Translations under genes and position numbers: made by a program
Shown: one piece after another, positions 25,058-41,426 of the stretch
Numbering within the stretch: the first letter of the stretch is position 1
How the letters are laid out: every line of letters starts with the position of its first letter
NCBI GenBank assembly: GCA_002707605.1
Contig: PANK01000015.1
Span: 205,989 to 268,827 of the forward strand
DNA from: Hoeflea sp.
GTDB taxonomy: Bacteria; Pseudomonadota; Alphaproteobacteria; Rhizobiales; Rhizobiaceae
DNA: 62,839 nt
Direction of reading: 5' to 3'
The notes under the pieces: model-generated
What the model was told of the DNA's origin: nothing
Databases searched by the model: none
The model's input: the letters and a program-made list of their open reading frames with translations, nothing else

Positions 25058-25305
25058 GCGGCTTTTCCTTTCAACGTTCCGATGATCGCCTTTACCCGGG
25101 CGAAGTCCTCAGCGTTCTCTGGGGACCACTCAGGCAGTCCGGCGGCGACGGCGGACATGGCCAGGCGCTCGGTAGGGGTGAGCTCTCGCTCACCCGCCTT
25201 GACCTGGACGGTGACCCGGGGCTTGAGCCCGATCGACCTCCCGGCCTCGGAGACCTGCTTTCCGTGAAACCCCATGTGTCCCATCCATTCGACGAAGATG
25301 TTCAT
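25054..25305 (-). CDS. Small hypothetical protein
   Basis: An 83-aa protein, ATG 25305, 4-nt overlaps on each side. The segment KQVSEAGRSIGLKPRVTVQV followed by LTPTERLAMSAVAAG might be a short DNA-binding fold. Not assigned. Confidence 0.5.
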   Translation of the reverse strand: MNIFVEWMGHMGFHGKQVSEAGRSIGLKPRVTVQVKAGERELTPTERLAMSAVAAGLPEWSPENAEDFARVKAIIGTLKGKAA

Positions 25306-25754
25306 GCGCCTTCCTCCTGTGCGTCTTTCGCGATCTTCTCCGCGATTTTGAAATTCTGATCACTCGCCTTTAGGAGCTCGGTGAAGGGCCAGACGTAGTG
25401 AGGTATGTCTTGTTCACCGTCGAGCCATTTGATAATGCGCGCCTGCGGAACGCCTATGAGCTCAGCGAAATAGGTTGGAGTGATGTCGATCTCTGCCAGA
25501 ACACTACCCAGGTTTGCGGCCGACATACGTCGGTAGCCGCCAGCACGGCGGGTGTCGACGACACGCGACTCGAGCAGACCGACCAGCGCCACGCATGCGG
25601 CCTCTCGAGCGGTCACTTGGCTTTCAGTCTCGAAAACGGTTCCGTCTGGATTTCGAACGTATTCAGGAATGAGCCCGGGAAGGGCAAATTGAGCGCGGTA
25701 AGTGCCGCCAGACTGCGGCAAGGCCTTCGCGATAACGCGTGACGCGGGTTTCAT
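25302..25754 (-). CDS. XRE-like regulator
   Basis: A 150-aa protein. DITPTYFAELIGVPQARIIK at about residues 90-109 is a helix-turn-helix of the XRE/antitoxin kind. GGAGATATT precedes ATG 25754. First of a three-gene unit following the terminator at 25772-25798, so it has its own promoter or receives read-through. Confidence 0.65.
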   Translation of the reverse strand: MKPASRVIAKALPQSGGTYRAQFALPGLIPEYVRNPDGTVFETESQVTAREAACVALVGLLESRVVDTRRAGGYRRMSAANLGSVLAEIDITPTYFAELIGVPQARIIKWLDGEQDIPHYVWPFTELLKASDQNFKIAEKIAKDAQEEGA

Positions 25755-27593: not shown

Positions 27594-27608
27594 GGGTATC
27601 TCCTTGGT

Positions 27609-27622
27609 GCATGTTTGCAGGG
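27609..27622 (-). promoter_or_regulatory. Start-associated motif, copy 1
   Basis: GCATGTTTGCAGGG on the plus strand, a divergent copy, 15 nt before the ATG of the DUF4942 methylase. Confidence 0.6.
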
Positions 27623-27630
27623 TGTTGGGA

Positions 27631-27830
27631 TCAGCGCTTCGGCAACGACTTTGCCGGCATGGAGGCGGACGACCGGACAGACTTGATCGTCATCTCGCCG
27701 GCGCCGCAGCGATACTCGTTCGGGAAGAACGTGCCGTGGATGGTGTCCCGGAATTCCTCGACGGCGGAAGATCGGGTGACCTTCTTGTCGAAGCGGATCG
27801 GACGGTAACTTCGTGGGTGTGAGCCTTCAT
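27631..27830 (-). pseudogene. Small gene split between two frames
   Basis: GGAGATCCAG precedes ATG 27830, which opens MKAHTHEVTV; that frame then drifts into Ser/Arg-rich shadow. The frame one base back carries a sensible protein (IRFDKKVTRSSAVEEFRDTI, then HGTFFPNEYRCGAGEMTIKS) to the stop at 27631. The 200-nt span is one base short of a multiple of three near ACCGTCCG, so either a deletion or a -1 shift joins them. The only alternative ATG (27852) lies inside the regulatory motif. Confidence 0.5.
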
Positions 27831-27848
27831 CTGGATCTCCTGATTGTT

Positions 27849-27860
27849 GCATGATTGCGG
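27849..27860 (-). promoter_or_regulatory. Start-associated motif, copy 2
   Basis: GCATGATTGCGG, 18 nt before ATG 27830 of the small split gene. Confidence 0.7.
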
Positions 27861-27861
27861 T

Positions 27862-28923
27862 TTAGGACGGCGTCCTGCGCGACTTCTCGTCGAGCAGTTC
27901 CGCATACCTTTGATGGATGCTGTCGGGTGATAGGTGGTGCGACTTGAAGCCGTAGATCTCGGAGATTTTTTGCCGGACGGAGCTGAGGATTTCGGCTTCG
28001 TCGTCGGACAGCATGCGAGTGGGCCATCCCTTAACGTAGAGCATCGGCTTGGTTATCTGGGCTTCGATGTCCTTCCTGATGGACGCCCGCTGCTTTGCCA
28101 ATTTGAACGCGTCGCGAGCTTCGTCATCCAGGAGCTGCGGAGCAATGTCACCAAGCCACCGGGCGCCTTGAAAGGCGAAGCTGCTATCAATCTCCAACTG
28201 CACCATCCGGCGGTATAGATCGCGGCTTTCTCGCTGCTCGCTCGCGGCAACCATATCCTGCATGCTCGACATGATGCAGAATCGGCAGGAGACGCGTCCC
28301 ATGCCGAAGACGCGATATGCGGGATGAGGTCGGAGGCCCGAGGCGTCGATCATCTCGAACACCTCTCCGACCGAGAGGTCGATAATGGGTCGCCACGTCC
28401 ATACTCGGCTCTGGCGATCGCCATCCGCGACGAGCATGCGAGAACGAGCGGCGCTCTCTTCTCGGCGGACCCCTGTAACATTGATGATCGTTTGTCCCTT
28501 AAATCGCCGCTTGAGCTCCGCCATGATGACGTGAGTTTTGAGTTCGGAGGTGCAGAACCGCATAGCTGGCGTGGACCAGCAGGGGACAAGGGTTACAGTG
28601 CTCAACTGCTCATAGCGCGCTTGGCTGGAGCTCCATCGGCTCTCCCAGCGTTCCATGAGGCCCCCGGCTTTGCGGCGAACAACTACGAGCTCGCATTTCA
28701 GGTGGTCCGCCAGATCTTGGCAAACATGGATACTGTCGTTCCACTCAACCGACCCCAAATCTGCGTGGATCAATATCCGCGGGCCCACATGCCCCGCTTG
28801 ATCCAAGTGCGAAAAGGTTGCGAGGGCTGCGGCTTGGCTGTCTTTGCCGCCGGAAACGCCGATGGCGACGGGAGTGTTTTTTGCGATGAGGTCGCGAACT
28901 TCCTCAGTCAGGGCGACGCCCAT
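27862..28923 (-). CDS. PAPS-reductase/DndC-like ATP-pyrophosphatase family protein
   Basis: A 353-aa protein. The PP-loop GVSGGKDSQAAA is at about residues 21-32. Further Cys-containing motifs are PCWSTPAMRFCTSELK and RVSCRFCIMSS, which could ligate a cluster. Enzymes of this superfamily adenylate substrates in sulfate assimilation, tRNA thiolation and phosphorothioate (Dnd) systems. No other dnd genes are visible. ATG 28923 follows AAGGAGC. Confidence 0.85.
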   Translation of the reverse strand: MGVALTEEVRDLIAKNTPVAIGVSGGKDSQAAALATFSHLDQAGHVGPRILIHADLGSVEWNDSIHVCQDLADHLKCELVVVRRKAGGLMERWESRWSSSQARYEQLSTVTLVPCWSTPAMRFCTSELKTHVIMAELKRRFKGQTIINVTGVRREESAARSRMLVADGDRQSRVWTWRPIIDLSVGEVFEMIDASGLRPHPAYRVFGMGRVSCRFCIMSSMQDMVAASEQRESRDLYRRMVQLEIDSSFAFQGARWLGDIAPQLLDDEARDAFKLAKQRASIRKDIEAQITKPMLYVKGWPTRMLSDDEAEILSSVRQKISEIYGFKSHHLSPDSIHQRYAELLDEKSRRTPS

Positions 28924-28940
28924 GTTTCTGCTCCTTTGTT

Positions 28941-28955
28941 GCATAATTGCGGGGG
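28941..28955 (-). promoter_or_regulatory. Start-associated motif, copy 3
   Basis: GCATAATTGCGGGGG, 17 nt before the PAPS-reductase-like start. Confidence 0.7.
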
Positions 28956-28959
28956 TGTG

Positions 28960-28979
28960 GCCGGGCCCGGAAGCCCGGC
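28960..28979. repeat. Intergenic hairpin before motif copy 3
   Basis: GCCGGGC and GCCCGGC pair around CCGGAA. It has no U-tract. It lies between the stop of the XRE gene and the motif. Confidence 0.5.
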
Positions 28980-28993
28980 GCGGGTATCGCCGC

Positions 28994-29377
28994 TTACTTC
29001 GCGACTGCCTTGATCATCTTGATGAAGTCGGCCTTCCTCTCGTCATCGAGAGCACGGAAAGCGCGGAGTAGGGCAACCTCACTGTCGTCAGCGACATGTT
29101 CCGGGCTTTTCTCTGCCGCACCAATGCCATCAACGCCGCGAAATAGGGCTTCAATGTCCGTGTTGAGCGTGTGGCAGAACTCCACCATGCGGCTGGCACT
29201 TATGCGGTTGGTGCCCTTCTCATACTTCTGGACTTGCTGGAAGGTGATGCCGGCGGCATCGGCAAGCTTCTCCTGAGTCATCCCGCGCTGCAGGCGGATG
29301 AGGCGCAGGTTTTGGCCGACAATGGCGTCGACCTCGCGGACTGTTTTCGCATTCTCTGTCAGTGCAACATGGTTCAT
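28994..29377 (-). CDS. XRE-family transcriptional regulator
   Basis: A 127-aa protein. The HTH at about residues 24-60 is MTQEKLADAAGITFQQVQKY, with the typical KGTNRISASRM extension, as in alphaproteobacterial phage-type regulators. The C-terminal half is helical. It probably controls neighbouring phage genes. AGGAGATCAAC precedes ATG 29377. Confidence 0.88.
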   Translation of the reverse strand: MNHVALTENAKTVREVDAIVGQNLRLIRLQRGMTQEKLADAAGITFQQVQKYEKGTNRISASRMVEFCHTLNTDIEALFRGVDGIGAAEKSPEHVADDSEVALLRAFRALDDERKADFIKMIKAVAK

Positions 29378-29395
29378 GTTGATCTCCTTTCGGTT

Positions 29396-29410
29396 GCACA
29401 GTTGCGGGGG
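29396..29410 (-). promoter_or_regulatory. Start-associated motif, copy 4
   Basis: GCACAGTTGCGGGGG, 18 nt before the XRE regulator start. Confidence 0.65.
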
Positions 29411-29422
29411 TAGTCGGGGTGG

Positions 29423-30580
29423 TCAGAGGCGCTTGGGCATCTGAACCATGGTGACCTCCGGATTGGCGAGGTCACGGATAAGCATGGGCGATCCCTCATC
29501 GATGAGGCCAAACTCCACATGCCCTTCGATCTGGCCGAACATGTCGAGCATGTAGCTCGGGTTCACGCCGATGACGAAGTCGATCTCGTTGTCAGATCGG
29601 ATGGTCATTTCGGCCGAGCCGGCCGACACCTCGTCCAGCGTGAATGTCAGCTCGCCAGGCGCAAAGGTGAGCTTCACCGCCTTGCCTTTCTCGACGGCGA
29701 TCGAAGTGACCTGCTTGATGGCGTCGGCCATGGCGCGGGGACAGGCACTGGCCGTCATCGCGGGCTTAGTGGGGATGACACGGCTGTAGTCGGGGAACGT
29801 GCCGTCAACCAGCTTCGTGAGCAGGGTTTCCTCGGTGTCGAGCTCGAACTGCACCAGATCGTCAGTCGCGCGGATGGCGACGTTCTCCGGGCACTCTTTC
29901 CGCTTGAGCAGGCGGTGCAGCTCCTTGACCGCCTTGAGGGGGATGATGACGCCCTCGAGTCCTTCGGCACCCTCGGGGAGCTCGATGCTGAAACGGGAAA
30001 GACGATGGCCATCCGTCGCGACGAAGTCCATTCCGGAGGTTTCGCCGTCGGTGGTCGGGCACATGTAGATGCCGTTCAGGTAGTAGCGTGACTCCTCAGT
30101 GGAGATTGCGAAGCTGACCTTCTCGATGATCTTGAGCAGCTGAGCGCTGGGGATGGTGAAATACTGGTTGAGCTGCCGGATCTCCGTGTCGTTGATCGAA
30201 GGCAACTCCTCGTCGCGGTTCGCCACTTCGTTCAGCTTGACGTTCAGCTTCCCGATGGAAACCTGGCAGCCGTGTTCGAGCATCGTGAAGGTGACCTCAT
30301 CCGACTTCTTCGCCTTTTTGAGAAGGTTCAGACCGGTCTGGCAGTCGAAGACCGCAAGGAAGCCCTTCGGTGCCTGGCACCGGATGAAGGTGGTTGAGGT
30401 TAGGTCCAGCGAGGTCGCAGATATTGCGATCCCGCCGGGTGCGCTGCGGACGACGGCGGCATACAGGATTTCAACTTCAGCCTTTTTGTCGATGGCCTTG
30501 GATGCATTCGTGAGAGCGCGCAGGGCATCGTCGTGTGAGATGGTGACGGAAGCGGCTTCGATGGTGGAAAAGGCAGTCAT
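29423..30580 (-). CDS. DNA polymerase III sliding clamp (beta subunit) homologue
   Basis: A 385-aa protein, the full length of bacterial DnaN. The hallmark stretches are TEESRYYLNGIYM and ATDGHRLSRF in the middle domain, FPDYSRVIP in the third, and a C-terminus VQMPKRL close to the clamp's MPMR-type end. It would encircle DNA and tether polymerase or repair partners. No polymerase gene is visible in the window. Confidence 0.92.
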   Translation of the reverse strand: MTAFSTIEAASVTISHDDALRALTNASKAIDKKAEVEILYAAVVRSAPGGIAISATSLDLTSTTFIRCQAPKGFLAVFDCQTGLNLLKKAKKSDEVTFTMLEHGCQVSIGKLNVKLNEVANRDEELPSINDTEIRQLNQYFTIPSAQLLKIIEKVSFAISTEESRYYLNGIYMCPTTDGETSGMDFVATDGHRLSRFSIELPEGAEGLEGVIIPLKAVKELHRLLKRKECPENVAIRATDDLVQFELDTEETLLTKLVDGTFPDYSRVIPTKPAMTASACPRAMADAIKQVTSIAVEKGKAVKLTFAPGELTFTLDEVSAGSAEMTIRSDNEIDFVIGVNPSYMLDMFGQIEGHVEFGLIDEGSPMLIRDLANPEVTMVQMPKRL

Positions 30581-30598
30581 GGATATCTCCGTGGTGTC

Positions 30599-30612
30599 GC
30601 ATAATTGCGGGG
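30599..30612 (-). promoter_or_regulatory. Start-associated motif, copy 5
   Basis: GCATAATTGCGGGG, 18 nt before the sliding-clamp start. Confidence 0.7.
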
Positions 30613-30630
30613 TGGTGCGGCTGCACCCAT

Positions 30631-30650
30631 GACCGGCACGGATGCCGGTC
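30631..30650. repeat. Intergenic hairpin
   Basis: Perfect 8-bp stem GACCGGCA/TGCCGGTC with loop CGGA, between gene end (30671) and motif copy 5. Confidence 0.55.
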
Positions 30651-30670
30651 GCAGCTACAGTCGGGACTTT

Positions 30671-31441
30671 TCAAGCCTGCTCGGGGAGGAGGTAATCTGA
30701 CGGCTTGAACATGAGAAACATCGGGGGGCGTGCCGCCGCGCTGATCGGGTCCGGGCTGTCCAGGTCGTACTGTTCGCCGATCTCGAGGATGACCTTCTCC
30801 GGCATCTCGCCATCGAGGCGGGCCTTCTCGATAACTTCCTCGAAGTCGTCGACGAGCTCCTCATAGCTCCAGTGGTGCTTGGCAGCCTTGCGAGCATCTT
30901 CGTACCAGCGCTGTTTAGCGATCTTGGCGAGTACCGTGATTGCGGTGGCCCGCGGGTCTGGAAGCGTGTCTCCGGACGCGGCCGGGTGACCGTCGTGGAG
31001 GCAGTGTTCCATGATCAGCGGCACCACGTCCCAATCGTAGGACATGCAGTCGAAGGGCTCACCGGCCGTCTGACAGATGTCGTAGACCTTGAGGAGCCAC
31101 CCTGCGTATATATTGGAGCTCGCACTGCGTAGCTCCATGCTGCCGACACCCTCTCGATATGTGGCCCAGACATCGATCTTCTGATCGGTATCCGAGAGGG
31201 TGACGTCGTTGATCCACTCCCAGATGCAGAGAGCTGCCTCCATTTCGAGGTGGGTGAACGCGCCGAGCCGTCGAGCGAGGTCGGCGGTCAGTGCGACCTT
31301 GTTGCGAAGCTTGAGGAAACTGCAATCCGCCGGCGGCACCTCGCCGCTCTGGGCGTCGTAAATGTGGGTGTTGATCGCCTCATCAAGGGCTTCCTTGGTC
31401 TGGTCGATGACTTCGATATAGCTGTTGACGTGGTCGTGCAT
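30671..31441 (-). CDS. Hypothetical acidic protein
   Basis: A 256-aa acidic, helical protein from ATG 31441 (start MHDHVNSYIEVIDQTKEAL). No family was recognised. ATG 31441 was chosen because GGAGACACCT and the motif precede it. Confidence 0.65.
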   Translation of the reverse strand: MHDHVNSYIEVIDQTKEALDEAINTHIYDAQSGEVPPADCSFLKLRNKVALTADLARRLGAFTHLEMEAALCIWEWINDVTLSDTDQKIDVWATYREGVGSMELRSASSNIYAGWLLKVYDICQTAGEPFDCMSYDWDVVPLIMEHCLHDGHPAASGDTLPDPRATAITVLAKIAKQRWYEDARKAAKHHWSYEELVDDFEEVIEKARLDGEMPEKVILEIGEQYDLDSPDPISAAARPPMFLMFKPSDYLLPEQA

Positions 31442-31458
31442 AGGTGTCTCCGTTTTGC

Positions 31459-31472
31459 GCATGATTGCGGGG
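31459..31472 (-). promoter_or_regulatory. Start-associated motif, copy 6
   Basis: GCATGATTGCGGGG, 17 nt before ATG 31441. Confidence 0.75.
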
Positions 31473-31475
31473 TAT

Positions 31476-31670
31476 TCAGTTCGGTTTGTTGGTGGCTCTG
31501 TGGTCGAACTCAAGCACCTGAGTGAACTCTTCATCGCGCCTCAAAGTCACGAGATAGCCGGCTTCGAGCTCGAACTTCGCCAGATCGAGGGCTTCATCAT
31601 CTTGGCGGACGTAGCGAGCAAGGAATTCCTGGGATCGCTCGCCGCCCCAGATATCGCAGATGATCATCAT
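31476..31670 (-). CDS. Small hypothetical protein
   Basis: A 64-aa protein (MMIICDIWGGERSQEFLARY). GGAG lies 8 nt before ATG 31670. It lies four bases beyond motif copy 6. No family was recognised. Confidence 0.55.
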   Translation of the reverse strand: MMIICDIWGGERSQEFLARYVRQDDEALDLAKFELEAGYLVTLRRDEEFTQVLEFDHRATNKPN

Positions 31671-31683
31671 GGGCTTACTCCGA

Positions 31684-32169
31684 TCACTTCGTTTCTCCTT
31701 TCTCGATTTGCTGTAGGGCGGCCCGGCCGATCTTGAGCACATCCTGATCGTTCGGCGCGGCGAACAGGATCATGGCTATTTCCACGGCTTGCCGGGGATT
31801 GATGGTGTCATTCTCGCCGATCGGGTTGGCCTCATAGTGCTCCACCTCTTCGTCGACGGCATACTTTGAAACAGTGCCGTCTAACGTCTCGCCGCACTTC
31901 ATGCAGTGCGGGCAGGTGTCTTCGTTGATAGCGTCGGTGGCGCAGACGAAATGGTCTTCCTGCGTTTCCTCTGGGAGCAAAGGCTTCGCTGCACTCAGGA
32001 GCGCGTCGGCACACTCGCGACACCAGAGGTGAGCTTCGTCTGAGTAGATCGAGCCGCCTTTGGCATCCTTGAGGCTGAATTGGCCCACGATGTAATAGGC
32101 TTGGGGTGCAACGAAACCTTGCTGTTTTGCGAAGGACTCGAGGGCATGTGCCATTTGGAAAGCGTCCAT
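31684..32169 (-). CDS. Hypothetical protein with a zinc-binding Cys cluster
   Basis: A 161-aa protein from ATG 32169. WCREC and CPHCMKC spaced by about 40 residues form a probable zinc site. The rest is acidic. No motif copy precedes it; a GGAGCATAAGG-like box does. Role unknown. Confidence 0.6.
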   Translation of the reverse strand: MDAFQMAHALESFAKQQGFVAPQAYYIVGQFSLKDAKGGSIYSDEAHLWCRECADALLSAAKPLLPEETQEDHFVCATDAINEDTCPHCMKCGETLDGTVSKYAVDEEVEHYEANPIGENDTINPRQAVEIAMILFAAPNDQDVLKIGRAALQQIEKGETK

Positions 32170-32174
32170 AATCC

Positions 32175-32471
32175 TTATGCTCCATAGGGTGTTGCGAACA
32201 GCACGTATTCGCGCTCTTCGATGGTGATCGTCTCGAACCGGCAATCCATGATGCTTGCCAGCGTGTCGAAGTCGTCGGAGCGCATCGTCTCCTCCCGGAC
32301 GCTCTGGAAATCGTGATCGTCCTGATCGATCTCCCAAGCCTCCAGGTGCATATCGAGCCCGGCGATGTTGATGTGGGCCAAGAGCCGGCAGTCTGGATCG
32401 GGTTCCGGGCCGCAAGGGTTCCATTTCAGCGCTTCGAGCGGGATGCGGGGTGATGTGTTGGAGTTTGTCAT
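32175..32471 (-). CDS. Small hypothetical protein
   Basis: A 98-aa acidic protein, ATG 32471 overlapping the upstream stop. No family was recognised. Confidence 0.55.
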   Translation of the reverse strand: MTNSNTSPRIPLEALKWNPCGPEPDPDCRLLAHINIAGLDMHLEAWEIDQDDHDFQSVREETMRSDDFDTLASIMDCRFETITIEEREYVLFATPYGA

Positions 32472-32692
32472 CCGTCGCTGTCCTCAATCTCTTCAGCTTC
32501 GGCCATTTCCGCGGCAAGTTGGGCGAAGTGGGCCACGTCTTTGACGCCACACTCGAGTCGTGCGAGGTGGAGCAAATCGGTGATCAGATCCTTGATGTCG
32601 GTCTGGAGTTCGCCCTCGGCAGCATGAACCATTCGAAATCCCTCGATCGCTGCGTAAGCCCAGGCAGCTCGGTCGGAATTCGTCGGCGTCAT
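32468..32692 (-). CDS. Small acidic helical protein
   Basis: A 74-aa protein from ATG 32692. DIKDLITDLLHLARLECG and an acidic tail of Glu/Asp/Ala are consistent with a DNA-mimic or adaptor peptide, but nothing specific was recognised. 4-nt overlaps on both sides. Confidence 0.55.
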   Translation of the reverse strand: MTPTNSDRAAWAYAAIEGFRMVHAAEGELQTDIKDLITDLLHLARLECGVKDVAHFAQLAAEMAEAEEIEDSDG

Positions 32693-33486
32693 GGCGTCAC
32701 CTCGTTGTTGTTGGCGCCGATGACATTGAGCTCCTCGATCGAGGCGTAACACCGATCTTCGCCATGCTCGGTCTGCAAGGACTGGAGGCAGAGTTTCCAG
32801 TCTTCGGCTGTGGCGCGGACGATGTCGCCGTTGTCGGCGAGCATGATGTTGACCAGATCAACGGCGGATGCGGTTGCGCTCTCGATAGAGGCATGAGCCT
32901 CAGTCTTGATACCCGGCACGCTGAAATGCTCTGCGGTCAGGACGTAAATGCGGGCCGGCGTCGGCTGGGTGGGCTCAATCGAAGGCAATCCTGCCGAGAT
33001 CTCGCGGGCTTCTCGGATCATCACCATGAAGGCTTGGAGTTCTGAGCACAGGCGCTCGTCGTTGAAATCGGCGATGTAGTCGGCGACATCGTCGTATTCC
33101 TTCGATGCAGCGTGCTCCGGATCGCCGAACTCGTCCTCCGGGGTAGTGAAGCTGGCCATCCGGTGAACGAATTCTGCGAAACTGTCGGCTCTTTCCTTCA
33201 GGTCGCTCGGCGCTGACGGTTTCTTTCGACCGTCCAGCGAGTTGACGAAGGCAACGACGTCGCTGAACGCGCCAGCCCGGTGTTGCGACGTCCATTCCTC
33301 GGGGTCAGCAAGATAGGCGAGGGAGTGGCATCCCGGGCACTGGCCGGCCGGAACGATGCAGCCGGGGTCGAGACGCTGCTCGATATCCTCGATCATTTCG
33401 AGCTTTCCGGCCGGGGTGACGGTGCCGCAGTTATCGCAGCGGCAGGGAGCGTCTTCGCTCCGGTTTGCGAGATAGCATTCAGACAT
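32689..33486 (-). CDS. Hypothetical protein with N-terminal zinc ribbon
   Basis: A 265-aa protein. CRCDNC and CPGC (about residues 15-52) form a four-Cys zinc ribbon. The rest is acidic. GGAGATCAC precedes ATG 33486, and motif copy 7 lies 17 nt upstream. First of a four-gene overlapping unit. Confidence 0.65.
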   Translation of the reverse strand: MSECYLANRSEDAPCRCDNCGTVTPAGKLEMIEDIEQRLDPGCIVPAGQCPGCHSLAYLADPEEWTSQHRAGAFSDVVAFVNSLDGRKKPSAPSDLKERADSFAEFVHRMASFTTPEDEFGDPEHAASKEYDDVADYIADFNDERLCSELQAFMVMIREAREISAGLPSIEPTQPTPARIYVLTAEHFSVPGIKTEAHASIESATASAVDLVNIMLADNGDIVRATAEDWKLCLQSLQTEHGEDRCYASIEELNVIGANNNEVTP

Positions 33487-33503
33487 GTGATCTCCGTAGG
33501 TTT

Positions 33504-33520
33504 GCATGATTGCGGGGGGA
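33504..33520 (-). promoter_or_regulatory. Start-associated motif, copy 7
   Basis: GCATGATTGCGGGGGGA, 17 nt before ATG 33486. Confidence 0.75.
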
Positions 33521-33528
33521 GGGTGCTG

Positions 33529-33762
33529 TTATTCGTTCCACGAAACTCCAGCATCCGGGTATTTCTGCTCCATGGCGGCGACCATGGCGTTCGCCTCATC
33601 AAGCGTCAGGTTCTCGTGCTCTTCGATCATCTCGATCGCGCCGTCGTCGTCAGGCTCTGCGCTGACGGTGACGTCATAGAACTGGATGGGAGCGGGGATG
33701 TTGCTGGCGATGGTGCAGTCGCCACTCGGGGTGACGGCCATGCCGAAGACTTGGATCTCCAT
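33529..33762 (-). CDS. Small hypothetical protein
   Basis: A 77-aa acidic protein (MEIQVFGMAVTPSGDCTIA). It directly follows the next gene with one base between, so is coupled to it. No family was recognised. Confidence 0.55.
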   Translation of the reverse strand: MEIQVFGMAVTPSGDCTIASNIPAPIQFYDVTVSAEPDDDGAIEMIEEHENLTLDEANAMVAAMEQKYPDAGVSWNE

Positions 33763-33763
33763 G

Positions 33764-34309
33764 TCAGGCCGCCTTTGTCATCTTCCAGCGTGCCAGCTTC
33801 GGCGCGAGGTGCTGGCGCACCTCTTCGGAGAGAGTGATCGGGCGGATCTTCGTCCACTGCGAGCTCTCGATATTCTCGATCGACTTGCGGATTGTCTCGA
33901 CGGCTTCGAGAGCTGGGTGCATCTCCAGAATCTCCCTCAACTGCTTGAGCTGCATTTTGTCGTCTTCGACTTCGGTCCACTGGCACCGGCGATCCTTCAA
34001 TCCGTCGTAGGACTGGAAGCCCGCGCCATAGTCTCCGCCTGCCTCGTTATTGCTGACGTAATCGAGAGAATGCTCTTCCAGCATGGCAGTGCAATCGAGG
34101 TTGCCGTAGTTCACGTCATTGAAGTGAAAGGTCATCATCCATCCCTCCGACGCGCAGACGGCGATGACCAAGTCGAGGTCGCCGGCTACGTTCGACGGGT
34201 CGTCGAGGTTTCCGCCGTCGCATTCGATGGCTTCGATGATGTCGTTGAGAGCTTCGACGGTTTTGATCTCACCCCCAATCTCGAGGGTCACGTAGCATCT
34301 GTCTCCCAT
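33764..34309 (-). CDS. Hypothetical acidic protein
   Basis: A 181-aa protein. AGGAGTTCCCC precedes ATG 34309. Segments CASEGWMMTFHFNDVNYG and GGDYGAGFQSYDGL suggest a mixed alpha/beta domain. No family was recognised. Confidence 0.6.
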   Translation of the reverse strand: MGDRCYVTLEIGGEIKTVEALNDIIEAIECDGGNLDDPSNVAGDLDLVIAVCASEGWMMTFHFNDVNYGNLDCTAMLEEHSLDYVSNNEAGGDYGAGFQSYDGLKDRRCQWTEVEDDKMQLKQLREILEMHPALEAVETIRKSIENIESSQWTKIRPITLSEEVRQHLAPKLARWKMTKAA

Positions 34310-34321
34310 GGGGAACTCCTG

Positions 34322-35500
34322 TCAGTGGGTTACGGAAATGGCTTCACCGAAGGGCGTGTTGCCGACGAGCTCATCGAAGTTGCGACTGTCGCCGTAGACG
34401 CCCCAGAGGACCGGCACATCAGGTTCTGGCCCGAAGTCGTGGCAGTAGAGGTCGGTGAAGAAGATGATGGCCCGCGCATCCTGGGCATTCTCACGAAGCC
34501 AGGCGAAGGCCGGCGCAAAGCGGGTGCCGCCGCCGCCCTGCGGATCGAGGCGGATATCGTCACCGCGCTCGAATGTCTGGTGATTGTGGACCTCGGCATC
34601 GCAGTAGACGACCGTGATCTTGTCGATGATGCCGTCACCGAACGCGCCGTTGATTTCGGAAGCGAACCGCTGCAGCACTTTCGCATTGATCGAGCCGGAT
34701 GTGTCGACGGCGACCGCAAGATGAGCGATGCCCTCAAACCGGGTGCTCGGAAGCACGATGTCCATGGGGAGATAGCGGCGGTTGGGCCGCGACCATGTGA
34801 AATCCGGAGTGCCCGCGGCGTCGTCGATGAAGCGGCGAAGGACGGACTGCCAGTCGACAACCGGCTTCAATAGCTGGTCGATGATACGCTGCATGCTGGC
34901 GGGCATGTTGCCGGCGGCCTGCTTGGCGGCGAGCGAGGCGGCCTGTTTGAGAGCGACGTCCATCTCGGCCGAAGCTTCGGCGAGTTCGGCCGGGCTGTTG
35001 CCGCCGTCGAGAACGCCACCGCATCCGCCCGGATCTCCACCGCCGGGATTGCTGCCCTTGCCGCCGCTGCCGCCGTCGCCGTCGGGCAGAAGATTGTAGA
35101 CTTCCTCGGCGGCCATCCCGGTGAATGCGGGGTTGTGCAATCCCTCTTTCGGCATCTTGCCGATGTTCGTGGCGACCAGCTCGCCGTTGATCACGTAGTC
35201 GGTCGCGATGTCCCACTTTTTCGGGTCACGCACCTGGCGCCGGGTGTGGTGCTTAAGCGCACAGTGCATGATCTCGTGGACGAACACGAAGACCAGCTCT
35301 TGCTTGCTCAGCTTGTCGACAAACGGCGGCCAGTAGTAGATCGACTTGCCGTCGGTCGCCATCGTGTCGCAGGTCTTTTCGTCCTTGCACTCGATGAGAT
35401 TGAGGCGGACGGCGAGCGCGCCGAAGAAGGGCTGCGAGAACATCAGGTCAGCCTTGGCGGCGACGAGCCTGCGCTCGATCGAAAGGTCTTTCCATGCCAT
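34322..35500 (-). CDS. VWA-domain protein with N-terminal HExxH metallopeptidase-like domain (DUF2201 type)
   Basis: A 392-aa protein. FVHEIMHCAL (HExxH) sits at about residue 75 in a putative metallopeptidase domain. A Gly-rich linker at about 140-170 follows, then a VWA-like domain with AVDTSGSI (MIDAS-type) near residue 270. It lies two genes from a MoxR AAA ATPase, the usual partner. In known pairs such as CobS-CobT the ATPase and VWA act as a remodelling or metal-insertion machine; the substrate here is unknown. Confidence 0.85.
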   Translation of the reverse strand: MAWKDLSIERRLVAAKADLMFSQPFFGALAVRLNLIECKDEKTCDTMATDGKSIYYWPPFVDKLSKQELVFVFVHEIMHCALKHHTRRQVRDPKKWDIATDYVINGELVATNIGKMPKEGLHNPAFTGMAAEEVYNLLPDGDGGSGGKGSNPGGGDPGGCGGVLDGGNSPAELAEASAEMDVALKQAASLAAKQAAGNMPASMQRIIDQLLKPVVDWQSVLRRFIDDAAGTPDFTWSRPNRRYLPMDIVLPSTRFEGIAHLAVAVDTSGSINAKVLQRFASEINGAFGDGIIDKITVVYCDAEVHNHQTFERGDDIRLDPQGGGGTRFAPAFAWLRENAQDARAIIFFTDLYCHDFGPEPDVPVLWGVYGDSRNFDELVGNTPFGEAISVTH

Positions 35501-35509
35501 GGGTGGCTC

Positions 35510-35857
35510 CTATCGTTTGATCATGCGAAAGCGCGCAGCCTTCGCCATTTCCTCAGGTGGTAACTGGAGGCGCATCAGGTTCTTGATGCTGCCGGGACGT
35601 ACTCGCGGTATCTTGCCGCCATAGGTGGCGGCGATGATTTCGCGGTCGGGCGGTGCTTTCGGCGTCTTGAGCTGGCTCACGCCAACCTTCCATTTTCCCT
35701 CCGTCACGTCGAAGATGAGGGCCCAATGCCCCATGCGGAGGTTCTCGCGGAGGCCGAAGAAGTGCCACCGCAGTTCGCGGGGTGGTCCGCCCAGCTTCGT
35801 TGAGCGAATCTCCTGAAACCCATAAGGGCCGTGTAAGGTGCGGATGCCGCTAGGCAT
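35510..35857 (-). CDS. Hypothetical protein in the MoxR-VWA unit
   Basis: A 115-aa basic, beta-rich protein (ELRWHFFGLRENLRMGHWAL). The start overlaps the upstream stop by 8 nt. No family was recognised. Its place between ATPase and VWA genes suggests a shared role. Confidence 0.55.
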   Translation of the reverse strand: MPSGIRTLHGPYGFQEIRSTKLGGPPRELRWHFFGLRENLRMGHWALIFDVTEGKWKVGVSQLKTPKAPPDREIIAATYGGKIPRVRPGSIKNLMRLQLPPEEMAKAARFRMIKR

Positions 35858-36194
35858 TGGTCATCCTTTTTCTGGCGATATGAGCGATGTGTTTGGCGTT
35901 GAGCATATCGAGGAGGGTGTCCTTGAATTTGCCTTTGAACGGGCCAATCCTGCCCACGTTGCCGAACAGGCCATTGAAGACAGCATCGGCCTCTCTCTGG
36001 TGGCGTTCCGACGCGCTCCCGAACCGGAAGGTGGAGCCGCCGCCAAAGTAGCAGGACAGGTGGACGAGGCAGGCTTCGCCGGTCGAACGACGCCCCAAGA
36101 AGGTGAAGGCCGTTCGACCGCGCGCGCCGGTCCCGTAATCTGTGTAGTTCACGGGGCCATAGAGCATGGTGATGTGCGCCCGTTCCTTAGTCAC
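35850..36194 (-). CDS. Hypothetical protein in the MoxR-VWA unit
   Basis: A 114-aa protein. GTG 36194 is in the ATPase stop region; ATG 36167 is a possible alternative. Gly/Phe-rich middle (CYFGGGSTFRFGSA) and basic C-terminus. No family was recognised. Confidence 0.55.
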   Translation of the reverse strand: MTKERAHITMLYGPVNYTDYGTGARGRTAFTFLGRRSTGEACLVHLSCYFGGGSTFRFGSASERHQREADAVFNGLFGNVGRIGPFKGKFKDTLLDMLNAKHIAHIARKRMTNA

Positions 36195-37179
36195 CGAAGA
36201 TGATGTCCTTGTTCCGCTGCGCCCAATCCGAATAGGCAGCTGTGTGGGACAGGGCGATGTCGCGATTGACGGCGTCCGTCATCATCAGCACTTCGAACTC
36301 TCCCGGCATGCGACCGCAGTAGATCGCTGCGTTCTCCAGCTCGCCGCTCGTCTCGACGCGGGCGGCAAGGGCAATCGAGATCGCGAACATGGCGGAGCGG
36401 TCCTTCGGCACAGGTGCCCGCTCAGGCTGGGTGAGCACGAGGTCAAGGGACGGGAGATCCTTCAGAGTCCGTAGGAAGCCCATGAACTCGGACGCCGCGC
36501 CGCTTCCAACGAGGCCGGAGACAAGACGCAAGAGGCGATGCTGAGGAGCGGTGGCGACCTTCGATACGCTCGCCCACTGTCGCGGCGACGGGAACGCGCG
36601 GACGTCGCTGCCTTCCATCGAATGCAGTAGACCCGGGCGGAATTTCAGGAATGCAATGACCATCGGGTCGATCGTGTTCTTGTATGCCCACCGGGCAAAT
36701 GTCTCGACATCATGCTCGACGTCGATGTGGGCGAAACGGTTGGCGAGCGCGGTCGGCATGCGCTGCGCGGCGGCCTTGTCCGACTGGCGATTGCCGGCGG
36801 CGACGATGCGCCAGCCGGGCGGAAGCTGGTACTCGCCAACCTTGCGGTCGAGAACGAGGCCAAAGCATGCCGCCTGCATGGACGGTGCAGCCGTGTTGAT
36901 CTCGTCGAGAAACAGGATTCCCTCGGAGCCGTCGCGGTCGGCGTTGGGCAGATCGTGCGGCGGCAGCCATTTGGATGTGTCGCCCTTGATGGAGGGAAGG
37001 CCGCGCAGGTCGACTGGATCGCGCAGGTTGGCGCGGAAGTCGATCATGGGCCATCCGCGTTCCTTGGCGATCGACTTGACGATGTCGGACTTGCCGATGC
37101 CAGGCGCGCCCCAGAGCATCGAAGGAATGTCGGCTTCGAGGTAGTCGGTGAGGGTTTCGGTTGCGTCGTGCAGGTTCAT
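36187..37179 (-). CDS. MoxR-type AAA+ ATPase
   Basis: A 330-aa protein from ATG 37179. Walker A is GAPGIGKSDIV (about residues 24-34) and Walker B ILFLDEINTA. The sensor region AAGNRQSD and a MoxR-like lid follow. It is upstream of the VWA/metallopeptidase and near a DUF3150 protein, giving a three-part module of the kind seen in other tailed phages. Function not shown. Confidence 0.9.
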   Translation of the reverse strand: MNLHDATETLTDYLEADIPSMLWGAPGIGKSDIVKSIAKERGWPMIDFRANLRDPVDLRGLPSIKGDTSKWLPPHDLPNADRDGSEGILFLDEINTAAPSMQAACFGLVLDRKVGEYQLPPGWRIVAAGNRQSDKAAAQRMPTALANRFAHIDVEHDVETFARWAYKNTIDPMVIAFLKFRPGLLHSMEGSDVRAFPSPRQWASVSKVATAPQHRLLRLVSGLVGSGAASEFMGFLRTLKDLPSLDLVLTQPERAPVPKDRSAMFAISIALAARVETSGELENAAIYCGRMPGEFEVLMMTDAVNRDIALSHTAAYSDWAQRNKDIIFGD

Positions 37180-37195
37180 GGGTATCTCCGTGGTC

Positions 37196-37211
37196 GCATG
37201 ATTGCGGGGGG
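37196..37211 (-). promoter_or_regulatory. Start-associated motif, copy 8
   Basis: GCATGATTGCGGGGGG, 16 nt before ATG 37179. Confidence 0.75.
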
Positions 37212-37216
37212 TGGTG

Positions 37217-37589
37217 TCAGGTCCAGACGATCTTCTCGAAAAGCACGGCGGGCCCGCTGATTGCGGGTATCTCCTCCGGGTCGAGGTTCGGATCGCGGGT
37301 AAGAGCGTTGTTGCGATAGATCTCGGTCGCCCGGATGTTCCGGATATGGCGGCCGTTGATTGCTGACGTCTCGCCGACGAACATGTCGGCGCGACGATTT
37401 TCGTAGAGCACCGTGACGTGCTCGAAAGGCTCATCGAAATGCAAGCGGATAGACCGCTTGATAGCGTCGTACATCGGCTCACGGGGCGCGCGGAGCATGA
37501 TGTGCGTCAACTGATCCCCGAGCGGGGGGGATCAGCCAGTAGCTATAGGCCGTCCCGGCTAGGTTCGGCGGTGTCAAAAGGCGAGCCAT
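37217..37589 (-). pseudogene. Gene interrupted at a 7-G homopolymer
   Basis: ATG 37589, three bases after the DUF3150 stop, opens a frame reading MARLLTPPNLAGTAYSYWLI. The natural continuation (LGDQLTHIMLRAPREPMYD and onwards to 37217) is in the +1 frame, reached across seven G at 37524-37530. The 373-nt span has one extra base, as expected for a one-base insertion in the run. Sequencing error, real mutation or +1 frameshifting are all possible. If ATG 37498 is used, a 93-aa protein results. Confidence 0.6.
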
Positions 37590-37591
37590 CG

Positions 37592-38494
37592 TCAGAGATA
37601 GGCGGCCACATTGCTGAGGATCGCCTCGGCCTGCGCCTTGACGTCTTCGCGCTTCGTCTCGCTGTCGCGGAGCACCTTGGCGTCCCACTGCGCGAGGGAT
37701 TTCAGCTTGTCGCCGAGATCGGTAAGCGCCGGATCGCCGGTGATGTTGAGCGAGGGGAGAACGGAGACGAGATCGCGGACGTTCTCGACGAGGGAGTCAC
37801 GGAAAATGCCTTCCGTCTTCTCGCCTTTGCGTGTTGCCGGCTTGTATGCGCCGAGCCGGTCGACCATACGCTGGCAGACTTCCGCCACGCGGCGATAGAC
37901 GTCCCCTACTGCGTCACGCGTCGCCTTCTGGACGTTCGCCTCGATTTCGCGGCGGATCATTTCGGCCTGGCCTTCCGACATCGCGACGCGGAAGTCAGAC
38001 GCGGTCTGCACCGGCATGATCCGCACCTCGATGTTGAAGCGCTTCTCGATGATCGAGACGTCCGGATAATCATCTTCACGGAACATGCCGTTGAGGCGTT
38101 TCCGCGCGTCGCTGACATGGTTCGGATAGTCGGCAAGGAACTTTCGGACTTCCGCGTCGAATTTCGCCTTCTGGCCATTGATCCAGTTGGTATGCGCCAG
38201 AAATGCGTCGTTTGCCATAATGCGCTGGCCGTCATCGAGCCACGGCAAGGTGCGCTCGGCAAAACCGTTGCGGGTTTCGGAAACAACTTTCTCGATCGGC
38301 TGGAGCGCCTTCCGGTCGATGAGAAGCTTGTTATAGCGGCCAGCGTCCTTTTCGGCGCCGTGAGAGCTGTTGATCTCGTCGGTGATTTCCTTGTCGAGAC
38401 GGCGCGCCGACCACAAAGAAATTTTCAGAGTGACCAGCATTGCCCGCGACGCGAGGGCGTTGGAAGTCGAGATATTGAGGGCAGGTGCGTTCAT
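37592..38494 (-). CDS. DUF3150-type phage protein
   Basis: A 300-aa protein from ATG 38494. The helical N-terminus (ISLWSARRLDKEITDEI) and KFLADYPNHVSDARKRLNGM resemble the DUF3150 family, which often accompanies MoxR and VWA genes. The product may be an adaptor or substrate of that complex. The rest is coiled-coil-rich. Confidence 0.75.
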   Translation of the reverse strand: MNAPALNISTSNALASRAMLVTLKISLWSARRLDKEITDEINSSHGAEKDAGRYNKLLIDRKALQPIEKVVSETRNGFAERTLPWLDDGQRIMANDAFLAHTNWINGQKAKFDAEVRKFLADYPNHVSDARKRLNGMFREDDYPDVSIIEKRFNIEVRIMPVQTASDFRVAMSEGQAEMIRREIEANVQKATRDAVGDVYRRVAEVCQRMVDRLGAYKPATRKGEKTEGIFRDSLVENVRDLVSVLPSLNITGDPALTDLGDKLKSLAQWDAKVLRDSETKREDVKAQAEAILSNVAAYL

Positions 38495-38511
38495 GATAGG
38501 TCTCCGTTTGC

Positions 38512-38525
38512 GCATTATTGCGGGG
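38512..38525 (-). promoter_or_regulatory. Start-associated motif, copy 9
   Basis: GCATTATTGCGGGG, 17 nt before ATG 38494. Confidence 0.7.
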
Positions 38526-38574
38526 TTAAAACAAAATTCTGAGACGTCCGCTGTTTAACAGCCGGTCGAATGGA

Positions 38575-38592
38575 TTACAAATAAAATTGTAG
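38575..38592. promoter_or_regulatory. Distal copy of the repressor operator
   Basis: TTACAAATAAAATTGTAG has the 7-4-7 dyad architecture of the sites at 15452-15469, with changes in the centre and one arm base. It sits about 80 bp upstream of the DUF3150 start and may put the MoxR unit under repressor control. Confidence 0.45.
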
Positions 38593-38608
38593 ATTGTGCC
38601 TCATCTGG

Positions 38609-38713
38609 TTAGCGGGTGAGCTGGGGAACGATCTCGCCGAGCAGGGGAAGCCAAGCGTAGATTGCTGCGATGAACACGCAGACCGATACGAAGGCGAAAG
38701 CGTCACGAAGCAT
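38609..38713 (-). CDS. 34-aa membrane peptide
   Basis: MLRDAFAFVSVCVFIAAIYA and further residues form a single hydrophobic helix. The ATG at 38713 overlaps the stop of the upstream gene. Its presence is supported by that overlap and by hydrophobicity only. Confidence 0.45.
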   Translation of the reverse strand: MLRDAFAFVSVCVFIAAIYAWLPLLGEIVPQLTR

Positions 38714-38945
38714 TGGCCGCGACCTCTTTCGCGCACTCGCCGCGCGCCATGTAATAGACCTCTTGCGCCCGCTGGCAGGCTTCCCAAGCGGCTTTGACGA
38801 TTGGCGGGTGTGCGGAGTCGTCCGCATCATAGCGGCGATTGCGTGCGTCATCTCCGAACGCATCGACAAGCGCGGTTGAATACGCGTGTTCGGCGGCAAG
38901 CCACGCGGCATAGACCGCCGAGATTGTGGCATCTGAAAGTGTCAA
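38703..38945 (-). CDS. Small hypothetical protein
   Basis: An 80-aa protein with a TTG start at 38945, 9 nt after GGAG and 18 nt after motif copy 10. Helical, Ala-rich (AVYAAWLAAEHAYSTALVDA). No family was recognised. Confidence 0.6.
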   Translation of the reverse strand: MTLSDATISAVYAAWLAAEHAYSTALVDAFGDDARNRRYDADDSAHPPIVKAAWEACQRAQEVYYMARGECAKEVAANAS

Positions 38946-38963
38946 TCGGGTATCTCCTCAGTT

Positions 38964-38976
38964 GCATGATTGCAGG
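38964..38976 (-). promoter_or_regulatory. Start-associated motif, copy 10
   Basis: GCATGATTGCAGG, 18 nt before the TTG start at 38945. Its presence supports that unusual start codon. Confidence 0.65.
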
Positions 38977-38981
38977 ATGAG

Positions 38982-39018
38982 ACACCCGCCCGGAACGGGG
39001 TGGATTCCGGGCGGGTGT
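38982..39018. repeat. 14-bp perfect hairpin
   Basis: ACACCCGCCCGGAA pairs with TTCCGGGCGGGTGT around a 9-nt loop. It sits in the 110-bp gap between two small genes. Confidence 0.6.
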
Positions 39019-39020
39019 AG

Positions 39021-39045
39021 GCGACGGCTAGGGTGTTGCCGTCGC
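39021..39045. repeat. Second adjacent hairpin
   Basis: GCGACGGC/GCCGTCGC, 8 bp, with TTTT on the plus-strand side. It is the wrong way round to terminate the leftward transcript, so it may instead stabilise it. Confidence 0.5.
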
Positions 39046-39055
39046 TTTTCGGGTG

Positions 39056-39229
39056 TCAGTGGACGGTTTCCGCCGGTTCGATGACTCGAGCTTTCCTAAG
39101 ACGCTCGCGCATGGCGTCCGCCTTGGCGAGATACGCGCACAACTCGGCGCTTGCGCGATCACGATCGCGGTCAAGCGCGGTCTCATAGCCGGGATGCTTC
39201 CGGCATGCGGTCGAATACTGGCTTGTCAT
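39056..39229 (-). CDS. Small hypothetical protein
   Basis: A 57-aa protein, ATG 39229 after GGAGATATCACC. Charged helix (ASAELCAYLAKADAMRERLR). No family was recognised. The nearest motif copy (39316) is 87 nt upstream instead of the usual 15-20. Confidence 0.55.
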   Translation of the reverse strand: MTSQYSTACRKHPGYETALDRDRDRASAELCAYLAKADAMRERLRKARVIEPAETVH

Positions 39230-39315
39230 GGTGATATCTCCGGACCGCAAGGCGCAATCAGCCGTGCCGCGATATGGCGCGGGTTGGCGAGATCGGCCTT
39301 AGCGGTCGCTTGTTC

Positions 39316-39330
39316 GCATGGTTGCGGGTG
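39316..39330 (-). promoter_or_regulatory. Start-associated motif, copy 11 (displaced)
   Basis: GCATGGTTGCGGGTG, 87 nt upstream of ATG 39229. A copy without a gene right behind it, or one whose former short gene has been lost. Confidence 0.5.
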
Positions 39331-39394
39331 TCAGCCTGACGGCTGTCAATCGGCACAAACGAGCGTGCGGATAGAGAGACGCCAGAGACGAGAA

Positions 39395-39420
39395 ACCCCG
39401 CCCGGCAAACCGGACGGGGT
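39395..39420 (-). terminator. Hairpin after the Lys-rich gene
   Basis: On the minus strand ACCCCG-T-CCGG/CCGG-G-CGGGGT around TTTG, followed by TTCTCG. It lies 16 bp after the stop at 39436, so it is a partial terminator or 3'-end stem. Confidence 0.5.
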
Positions 39421-39435
39421 AGAGTGCGGCAGCAG

Positions 39436-40038
39436 TTACGCGGCGACGGCTTCCGGAGTGGCAGCGCGGAGAACGACCGTGCCCGGAATCGGGTGGACGT
39501 TATCGGCCTTCTTGGCGGCCTTCTTTTCAGCCTTCTTTTCGGCTTCCGCTGCGACTTCTTTTGCTGCCTTTTCCATGGCAGCCTTGTGAAGGCGGATGAC
39601 GCCATGCATGGCGGAAAGCGTCGCGTGATCGGTGCCGACTTCTTCGGCCTTTTCAATCAGGCTTTCCATCTTGGCGACAAGATCGAATTCGGGCTTCTTG
39701 GCGTCCGCCTTTTTGGTTTCCTTGACATAATCAGCCGGGGCGATTTTCATCGCGGCTTCCATGTCGGATTTGCCCTTGCGATATTCGAACTTTTCGGCCT
39801 TGGCGTCGAATTTGCACTTGCCGAATGCGGTCGCCCATTTGACCAGACCGGCGCGATAGTTGCGCGGTGTCACCTCGTAAAGTGCCTGCACATAGCAAGC
39901 ATCGTTGTGAGCGTCCAAGTGGGTGAGGGCAGAGGCGGCAAGCTGATGCTCGCGTTCCTTGAAGGTTGCGACCTGCTTGGCGCGACCTGCGATTGCGTTT
40001 GCGAGTGCCTTGCCCTTGATGATCTGGAAAGTTGCCAT
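39436..40038 (-). CDS. Hypothetical Lys/Ala-rich protein
   Basis: A 200-aa protein from ATG 40038 (MATFQIIKGKALANAIAGRA). The C-terminal third is Lys/Ala/Glu-rich (KAAKEVAAEAEKKAEKKAAK), like histone H1-type tails. DNA binding is plausible but not shown. First gene of the second leftward block, so probably the most highly expressed there. Confidence 0.65.
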   Translation of the reverse strand: MATFQIIKGKALANAIAGRAKQVATFKEREHQLAASALTHLDAHNDACYVQALYEVTPRNYRAGLVKWATAFGKCKFDAKAEKFEYRKGKSDMEAAMKIAPADYVKETKKADAKKPEFDLVAKMESLIEKAEEVGTDHATLSAMHGVIRLHKAAMEKAAKEVAAEAEKKAEKKAAKKADNVHPIPGTVVLRAATPEAVAA

Positions 40039-40058
40039 TTTGATATCTCCGTTTGTTT

Positions 40059-40072
40059 GCATGATTGCGGGG
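40059..40072 (-). promoter_or_regulatory. Start-associated motif, copy 12
   Basis: GCATGATTGCGGGG, 20 nt before ATG 40038. A further copy and a hairpin lie just upstream. Confidence 0.75.
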
Positions 40073-40095
40073 TTCGTTCCGATAGAACGCATAGG

Positions 40096-40117
40096 GGGCG
40101 ACCGTTTCCGGCCGCCC
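40096..40117. repeat. Hairpin between motif copies 12 and 13
   Basis: GGGCGACCG/CGGCCGCCC with one A-C mismatch and TTTC loop. Confidence 0.5.
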
Positions 40118-40135
40118 GCTAGATTTTCCATCGTT

Positions 40136-40149
40136 GCATGATTGCAGAA
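40136..40149 (-). promoter_or_regulatory. Start-associated motif, copy 13
   Basis: GCATGATTGCAGAA, the most upstream copy, ahead of the whole block. An ATG in the stretch between copies 13 and 12 is in frame with the Lys-rich gene. Confidence 0.6.
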
Positions 40150-41341: not shown

Positions 41342-41370
41342 TTGACTTTCCAAATTGTTGAGTCATAACA
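41342..41370 (+). promoter_or_regulatory. Candidate late promoter
   Basis: TTGACT (41342-41347), 17 bp, ATAACA (41365-41370). An operator-like dyad CTACAAGGAAATTTGCAA (41318-41335) lies just upstream. It would start a transcript about 20 nt before a hairpin. Confidence 0.45.
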
Positions 41371-41389
41371 GCGGCATAGACCAGAAGTG

Positions 41390-41418: not shown

Positions 41419-41426
41419 AAATTTCT

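Follow-up and report, generated by a model that had tools for sequence, protein, structure and literature searches.

A covarying hairpin repeated ahead of gene starts in the replication operon of a Hoeflea prophage, probably a set of translational operators

The replication/early block of a prophage in Hoeflea sp. (NCBI GenBank assembly GCA_002707605.1, contig PANK01000015.1, positions 205,989 to 268,827 of the forward strand; this whole stretch of 62,839 nucleotides is called the window below) carries a short repeat on its minus strand, and we consider it probable, on comparative sequence grounds, that the copies act as small RNA hairpins serving as translational operators for the head genes of the replication operon. 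As comparison with relatives shows, the element consists of a C-run, a stem of usually 3-4 bp with an A-U closing pair, a tetraloop of the form ANNR, a linker rich in A, and GGAG, the core of the Shine-Dalgarno (SD) sequence. The stem-loop nature of the copies is new beyond the observation of an earlier, sequence-only reading of the window, which had pointed out a start-associated repeat. We found no description of the element in the open-licence PubMed Central (PMC) literature, and a search of nine sources against Rfam (4227 families, gathering threshold) returned tRNA only.

Searching both strands of the window for CCCCGCAATCATGCAA with at most 3 mismatches gave 14 matches: 13 span 27607-40149 on the minus strand, and the remaining one is at 41855 on the plus strand. 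In 100 shuffles of the window, also searched on both strands, the mean was 0.95 matches (maximum 3; 14 reached by 0/100). A copy is present before each of the 11 genes named in the sequence-only reading (11/11), and the two additional copies it reported lie at 39314-39329 and 40134-40149; the distance from motif to start codon does fall in a fixed range, which is 13-18 nt rather than the 15-20 nt given there. An SD core 3-8 nt past the stem and then a start codon follow 11 of the 13 copies, with the two extra copies lacking an SD. Each copy forms a small stem-loop, GCA-ATCA-TGC, extended to four pairs in 8/13. The copies are as follows, all on the minus strand, with bit scores from a covariance model (R1) where given.

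40135..40146, minus strand: hairpin copy 1, TGCA-ATCA-TGCA, in the leader, no SD behind it; R1 20.3 bits
40059..40068, minus strand: hairpin copy 2, precedes gene 39436-40038 (phrog_1448); R1 31.1 bits
39315..39326, minus strand: hairpin copy 3, CGCA-ACCA-TGCG, no SD behind it, about 85 nt from the gene start at 39229; R1 23.3 bits
38963..38974, minus strand: hairpin copy 4, precedes gene 38703-38945 (TTG start); R1 27.4 bits
38511..38522, minus strand: hairpin copy 5, precedes gene 37592-38494 (DUF3150); retained at the L019, L022 and L034 orthologues
37195..37206, minus strand: hairpin copy 6, precedes gene 36187-37179 (MoxR-like AAA ATPase); R1 37.1 bits, the top score in the genome
33504..33513, minus strand: hairpin copy 7, precedes gene 32689-33486
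31458..31469, minus strand: hairpin copy 8, precedes gene 30671-31441
30598..30609, minus strand: hairpin copy 9, precedes gene 29423-30580 (sliding clamp)
29396..29405, minus strand: hairpin copy 10, loop ACTG, precedes gene 28994-29377 (helix-turn-helix, HTH, regulator)
28941..28950, minus strand: hairpin copy 11, precedes gene 27862-28923 (PAPS reductase-like)
27849..27858, minus strand: hairpin copy 12, precedes a short open reading frame (ORF) with start 27830
27608..27619, minus strand: hairpin copy 13, precedes gene 25821-27593 (DUF4942/methyltransferase); retained at the L020 and L021 orthologues

The L022 homologue of the gene at 39229 carries the element directly at its start. Copy 1 (40134-40149), which lies 77 nt upstream of the copy at the operon's first gene (phrog_1448), may serve as a decoy or as a site in the leader. 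The short ORF behind copy 12 (27631-27852 in the window) shows an apparent frame change after about 10 codons, the other frame being more protein-like.

The placement of the copies follows the spacing of the genes. Among 22 genes called between the first gene and the terminator, with gene starts called manually (32490 mis-set, 27830 entered one base off), the element occurs in 10 of the 12 that have at least 30 nt free upstream vs none of the 10 that lie closer or overlap (Fisher p = 1e-4), in agreement with the sequence-only remark that tightly overlapping genes lack it. Three genes past the terminator were left out of this count; the one starting at 25754 has a 66-nt upstream gap and no element. 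The block, which includes phrog_1448, DUF3150, a MoxR-like ATPase, DUF2201/VWA, the sliding clamp, the HTH regulator, and the PAPS reductase-like and DUF4942/methyltransferase genes, reads as one leftward operon, the gene at 34322-35500 being an HNH endonuclease by its PHROG label and DUF2201 by Pfam. A consensus scan of 24500-42000 aimed at sigma-70 type promoters found no -35/-10 hexamers in the element-bearing block; the two promoter-like sites that it did find (4.3 expected) are both upstream of 40149. Terminator-like sites number 18 in the region against 15.8 expected, with the following ranking first.

25798-25780, minus strand: terminator-like site, 8 pairs with an ATTTTTT tail, consensus match, which would close the element-bearing operon

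The leftward early operon is separated from the terminase and portal genes, which run rightward, by a tRNA-Met gene (41427-41503, plus strand).

A search of a phage collection at the DNA level gave no match to the window, and relatives were collected through protein searches of genomes and viral contigs with the ATPase, VWA and DUF3150 proteins (L and G handles denote records and genomes). Elements in these relatives were selected by the C-A-ANNR-U-G core, the SD and the start codon only, leaving the third stem pair out of the selection. That pair is nevertheless Watson-Crick in 172 of 182 distinct cores (GC 105, CG 53, TA 14), with shuffles averaging 82 and never exceeding 104, and the next pair outward is Watson-Crick in 124/182 distinct elements vs 52 by shuffling. 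The opposite-strand control produced 12 picks, of which 4 were paired at pair 3. In a wider set of 26 alphaproteobacterial phage and prophage records, near-copies included, pair 3 is Watson-Crick in 247/259 elements, and at least two pair types occur at this position within 23 of the 26 records; no base-specific contact would therefore be needed there. A protein that reads bases in DNA would hardly account for compensatory changes of this kind within a single phage. In a structural alignment (A6) of 56 of the 174 elements of the ANYA (136) and ATYG (38) groups, hand-picked for variety and pre-selected on pairs 2 and 3, 95.5% of cells are paired and the covariation score is 0.52, compared with 0.10 when shuffled and at most 0.051 when slid. 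In 133/196 elements the SD follows the start of the loop at 12-14 nt.

R1 finds 111 matches at E≤1 in 21 sources, and every one of them shares its strand with the ATPase operon. In the 4.3-Mb source genome, where 150 of 841 first-look candidates were scored, the top 13 scored matches are the 13 prophage copies, followed by matches of 15.7 bits (E 1.7) and 13.8 bits (E 6.5). A host regulon accordingly finds no support, these two being the best scored matches outside the prophage.

The element recurs in relatives, at about 4-16 copies per phage, and is retained at orthologous starts despite 36-61% protein identity. Enrichment at homologous gene starts in related phages, on which the sequence-only reading had staked its proposal, was thus found. 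What had been put forward there as a motif of this phage holds as a start-linked repeat and is not limited to one phage, with relatives carrying other loop types. The named hosts of element-bearing prophages are Devosia, Peteryoungia, Ensifer, Brucella tritici, Brucella pecoris, Rhizobium, Pseudochrobactrum and Aurantimonas, which we take to be Hyphomicrobiales (Devosiaceae alone was looked up). Several records are redundant by contig or by identical element lists (L138 with L122/L151, L124 with L052/L149, L131 with L123, L132 with L034/L053, and L115 with L051); L124 and L149 being the same phage, the 26-record set holds 25 distinct phages, with L118-L120 and L147 close kin.

With respect to the loop, we observe one type per phage and different types between relatives. 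Most phages have ANNA loops, mostly AUCA, while ANNG loops, mostly AUCG, are found in L113, L154, L125, L128 and L152. L123 has AUAG, AUGG or AUUG loops, its stems being longer and topped by GGA and TCC, and L055 has a G-U closing pair in 12/13 elements. Of 236 elements from 24 records, 228 share loop base 4 with the majority of their phage (permutation mean 159, maximum 173; L055, L119, L120, L149 and near-empty records omitted). In the ATPase tree, L113 and L154 are nearest to the window yet have the opposite loop type, and they are placed among A-type phages on a 94/97-supported branch. A concerted difference at about 10 copies would be most simply explained by a difference in a shared reader, and a loop that is uniform within a phage and different between relatives suggests a phage-specific one. 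Since hosts named Rhizobium carry both an A-type phage (L149) and a G-type phage (L152), the reader is probably phage-encoded, and a host factor is less likely.

The following course of events would account for these patterns. The replication/early operon would be one leftward transcript unit ending at 25798-25780 and split into translation units, with the head gene of nearly every unit carrying a hairpin; genes that overlap or closely trail another gene lack one and are probably translationally coupled. A phage-encoded factor would bind the mRNA stem-loop beside the SD and set the translation of the head genes jointly, most likely by ribosome exclusion, so that translation would be repressed in the lysogen or once the early phase is over. 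Action on the mRNA, a phage-encoded reader, an effect on translation initiation and the sign of that effect are all points that we infer, the RNA level because of the orientation, the asymmetric loop, the tight SD spacing and the interchangeable pairs. The sequence-only reading, which likened the motif to start-associated sequences of mycobacteriophages, had left the choice between a promoter or operator and an RNA element open; the covarying stems, the fixed orientation and SD spacing, and the lack of sigma-70-like sites in the block favor its RNA branch.

As to the reader, the best candidate, on evidence that is suggestive only, is an HTH protein encoded just past the terminator.

25302..25754, minus strand: candidate trans-acting factor, 150 aa, beta-beta-alpha N-terminal part and HigA/Aca2-type HTH, with a putative role

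Its predicted model (mean predicted local distance difference test score 90.9) shows two strands and a helix, then the HTH, which has the XRE HTH fold and aligns structurally with HigA2 (Z 9.9) and Aca2 (Z 9.0); sequence matches supporting the HTH are weak, and Pfam gave no match for the protein. The N-terminal part may be "HicB-like" in our reading of weak Foldseek rows (6u0i, E 0.10; 6hpb, E 0.28). The family was found in 15 of 22 element-bearing records at the first profile search and in 20 after whole-record searches, which added L117, L126, L144 and L152, with L124 counted via the identical phage L149; none was found in the L123 record, nor in L055, searched within its 21 kb only (the profile for p37217 was out of frame and is disregarded). 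Among element-free relatives, the match is clear in L054 (2e-23), weak in L121 (1e-4) and partial in L143, with none in the L150 record or in the stretches of L153 and L130 that were searched. The phylogeny of the protein does not show clearly whether it follows loop type. A hairpin lies directly before the 25302-family gene in L128, and L125 has a hairpin-like stretch upstream of that gene, which would allow autoregulation; the window gene has none. The regulator at 28994-29377, suggested earlier as a binder of the motif, turned out to be a poor candidate, with homologues in only 10/22 element-bearing records. The phrog_1448 protein was also rejected as reader; it is present in 17/22 records and missing in G785, G783, L123, L152 and L055, and its predicted model had no PDB match with E under 1.

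Several observations weigh against translational operators read by such a protein. Within the window pair 3 is invariant (GC 11/11), the structure being visible via the relatives and pair 4 only. Predicted folds are weak, at -0.2 kcal/mol for the isolated 3-bp form and -1.8 to -3.5 kcal/mol for the 4-bp forms, a weakness compatible with a site that a protein holds and also with the absence of any RNA function. Over 28 loci, G-U and A-C are equally frequent at pairs 2-4 (11 each); at the closing pair of these loci the counts are 24 and 7, mostly from L055, with 11 and 10 on the opposite strands, and L123 has 7 G-U to 1 A-C at pairs 4-5, yet 9 to 6 over pairs 4-8. In whole relative records some R1 matches fall on the opposite strand. 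A single origin of the G type is still compatible with the best-supported branches of the ATPase tree alone, and L117 is mixed, with 4 A and 4 G loops. Moreover, the ATPase relatives L121, L143, L150 and L153 are element-free, although R1 gives two weak matches (E≤0.1) each in the L143 and L150 genomes, and a clear ANNR set was not found in L130, L054, L056, L093 and L096. No gene is present in all element-bearing phages and absent from every element-free one, kinship confounds the presence of the 25302 family, and genome G095, found through the 25302 protein alone, has a homologue but no such hairpins.

Part of this evidence bears on an operator or promoter at the DNA level, at which a dimeric phage repressor, an alternative sigma factor or an RNA polymerase would recognize the element as an inverted repeat. 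It is indeed an inverted repeat, the G-U and A-C counts are not clearly on the RNA side, and the XRE HTH is a common DNA-binding fold, so that the HigA/Aca-type HTH of the candidate factor suits this explanation and its link to RNA reading is weakened. Distant phages with a DUF3150 module, which have constant palindromes before starts, also weigh against the RNA interpretation, since they fit DNA operators equally, and DNA binding was preferred by Pope et al. 2011 for the extended start-associated sequence (ESAS) repeats of cluster K mycobacteriophages, according to excerpts of that paper (PMC3203893; statements on published systems with a PMC number refer to excerpts throughout). A DNA-level site is nevertheless unlikely in our judgment, given several pair types at one stem position within single phages, the fixed orientation with an asymmetric loop, the constant distance to the SD and the lack of sigma-70-like sites in the block, other promoter types being outside that scan.

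An element for RNA processing or stability, at which the hairpin guides an endoribonuclease or shields a 5' end cleaved between genes, appears improbable. In its favor, most SDs read GGAG at 3-8 nt from the stem, and one copy per longer intergenic gap would yield single-gene messages; on the other hand, stems of 3-4 bp are short for RNase III, and the PHROG matches obtained for 40 stretches of the window include no ribonuclease. A parallel exists in T4 RegB, which cuts GGAG/U in intergenic regions of early genes and cleaves at GGAG in early translation initiation regions, but the excerpts describe no hairpin requirement for it (PMC3014915). We regard a translation enhancer without any factor, at which the hairpin and its C/A-rich flanks keep the SD open or aid ribosome landing, as very improbable. 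Most independently started operon genes do carry the element and the SD is unpaired in several window folds, but an enhancer of this sort would require neither the uniform loop type within a phage nor the differing types of phages whose hosts share a genus name. A leader peptide or upstream ORF from the hairpin AUG was rejected, as its frame relative to the gene varies, L123 has no AUG (ATAG-TCC) and the G-type phages have GUG. An antisense small RNA is not supported, the single further 3-mismatch match in the window equaling chance expectation.

Returning to translational operators, a more far-reaching version, which we put forward tentatively and on sequence comparison, is that one phage protein, possibly the 25302-25754 HTH protein, reads the hairpin and controls translation of the whole operon, with loop and closing pair acting as a lock and key that is exchanged like an immunity type, so that co-resident phages could keep separate RNA-level regulons. 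L055, L123, G062 and the DUF3150-module palindromes would then be related systems of a widespread, unrecognized class.

Distant phages with the DUF3150 module (L055, L057, L060, L065, L069, L070, L082, L085, L089-L092 and L108) each have a palindrome or hairpin of their own that is repeated immediately ahead of the SD, e.g., TAACAATGTTA, TATACGGTATA and TCCTAATTAGGA, with the opposite-strand control of that scan giving mostly 1-2 members and once a maximum of 7. These palindromes are mostly constant in sequence, and both DNA and RNA readings are compatible with them. In L202 (genome G062, also found through the 25302 protein alone), the minus strand at 13330-12704 holds four copies of GCCCGATCTTGGGC, each followed by an SD and a start codon; they lie upstream of a clamp, a methyltransferase and a 25302-type protein, and no ATPase is among the matches of that stretch. 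Planktothrix phage Pag-Yong1 (L140, 6736-24129) has a near-constant palindrome, GGTTCAGNCTGAACC, before 12 of 46 printed annotated starts.

Among known systems, the coat proteins of RNA phages repress translation by binding operators with a stem below an A-N-Y-A tetraloop; those operators have longer stems and a bulged A and overlap the start codon, unlike the present element. Aca2 is said to repress its own translation by binding an RNA stem-loop at the ribosome-binding site, and would thus likewise be a phage HTH protein with a stem-loop beside an SD; Aca2 reportedly acts on one operon, whereas the present phages carry about 4-16 elements, and RNA binding is putative here. In the manner proposed for the window, T4 RegA is one phage protein that represses about 30 mRNAs by occluding the initiation region, although its sites are unstructured and A+U rich, while ours is a defined hairpin upstream of the SD (PMC3014915). 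The start-associated sequence (SAS) and ESAS repeats of cluster K mycobacteriophages, with 11-19 repeats per genome and, in the excerpts, a function given as unknown, resemble the element in that many near-identical copies lie mostly in one orientation at the starts of nonstructural genes, and in that the ESAS consensus varies between subclusters (PMC3203893, PMC12699233). The SAS, however, is a 13-bp consensus that contains the SD and lies 3-7 bp from the start, whereas the present element has another sequence and stands 3-8 nt upstream of the SD; for the ESAS, mRNA hairpins find little support from the authors in these excerpts (PMC3203893, PMC12699233), whereas the stem described here covaries strongly. 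Similarly, Microbacterium phages of clusters EC, EF and EG and Citrobacter phage Mordin have 8-12 copies of a repeat just upstream of starts (PMC7302621, PMC4611695). The EG type is also an inverted repeat, of 18 bp and typically 14-22 bp before starts, but its sequence, like that of the others, differs from ours, and the excerpts give one consensus across three genomes and report no covariation. Start-associated repeats are thus a kind already known, reported in several phage groups since 2011, and what is new here is the covariation of the stem, the place upstream of the SD, the loop types as specificity types and a candidate reader. If the interpretation as translational operators is true, these phages would have a phage-wide RNA regulon in which a single hairpin recurs before each translation unit, and would also be a ready source of orthogonal translation switches.

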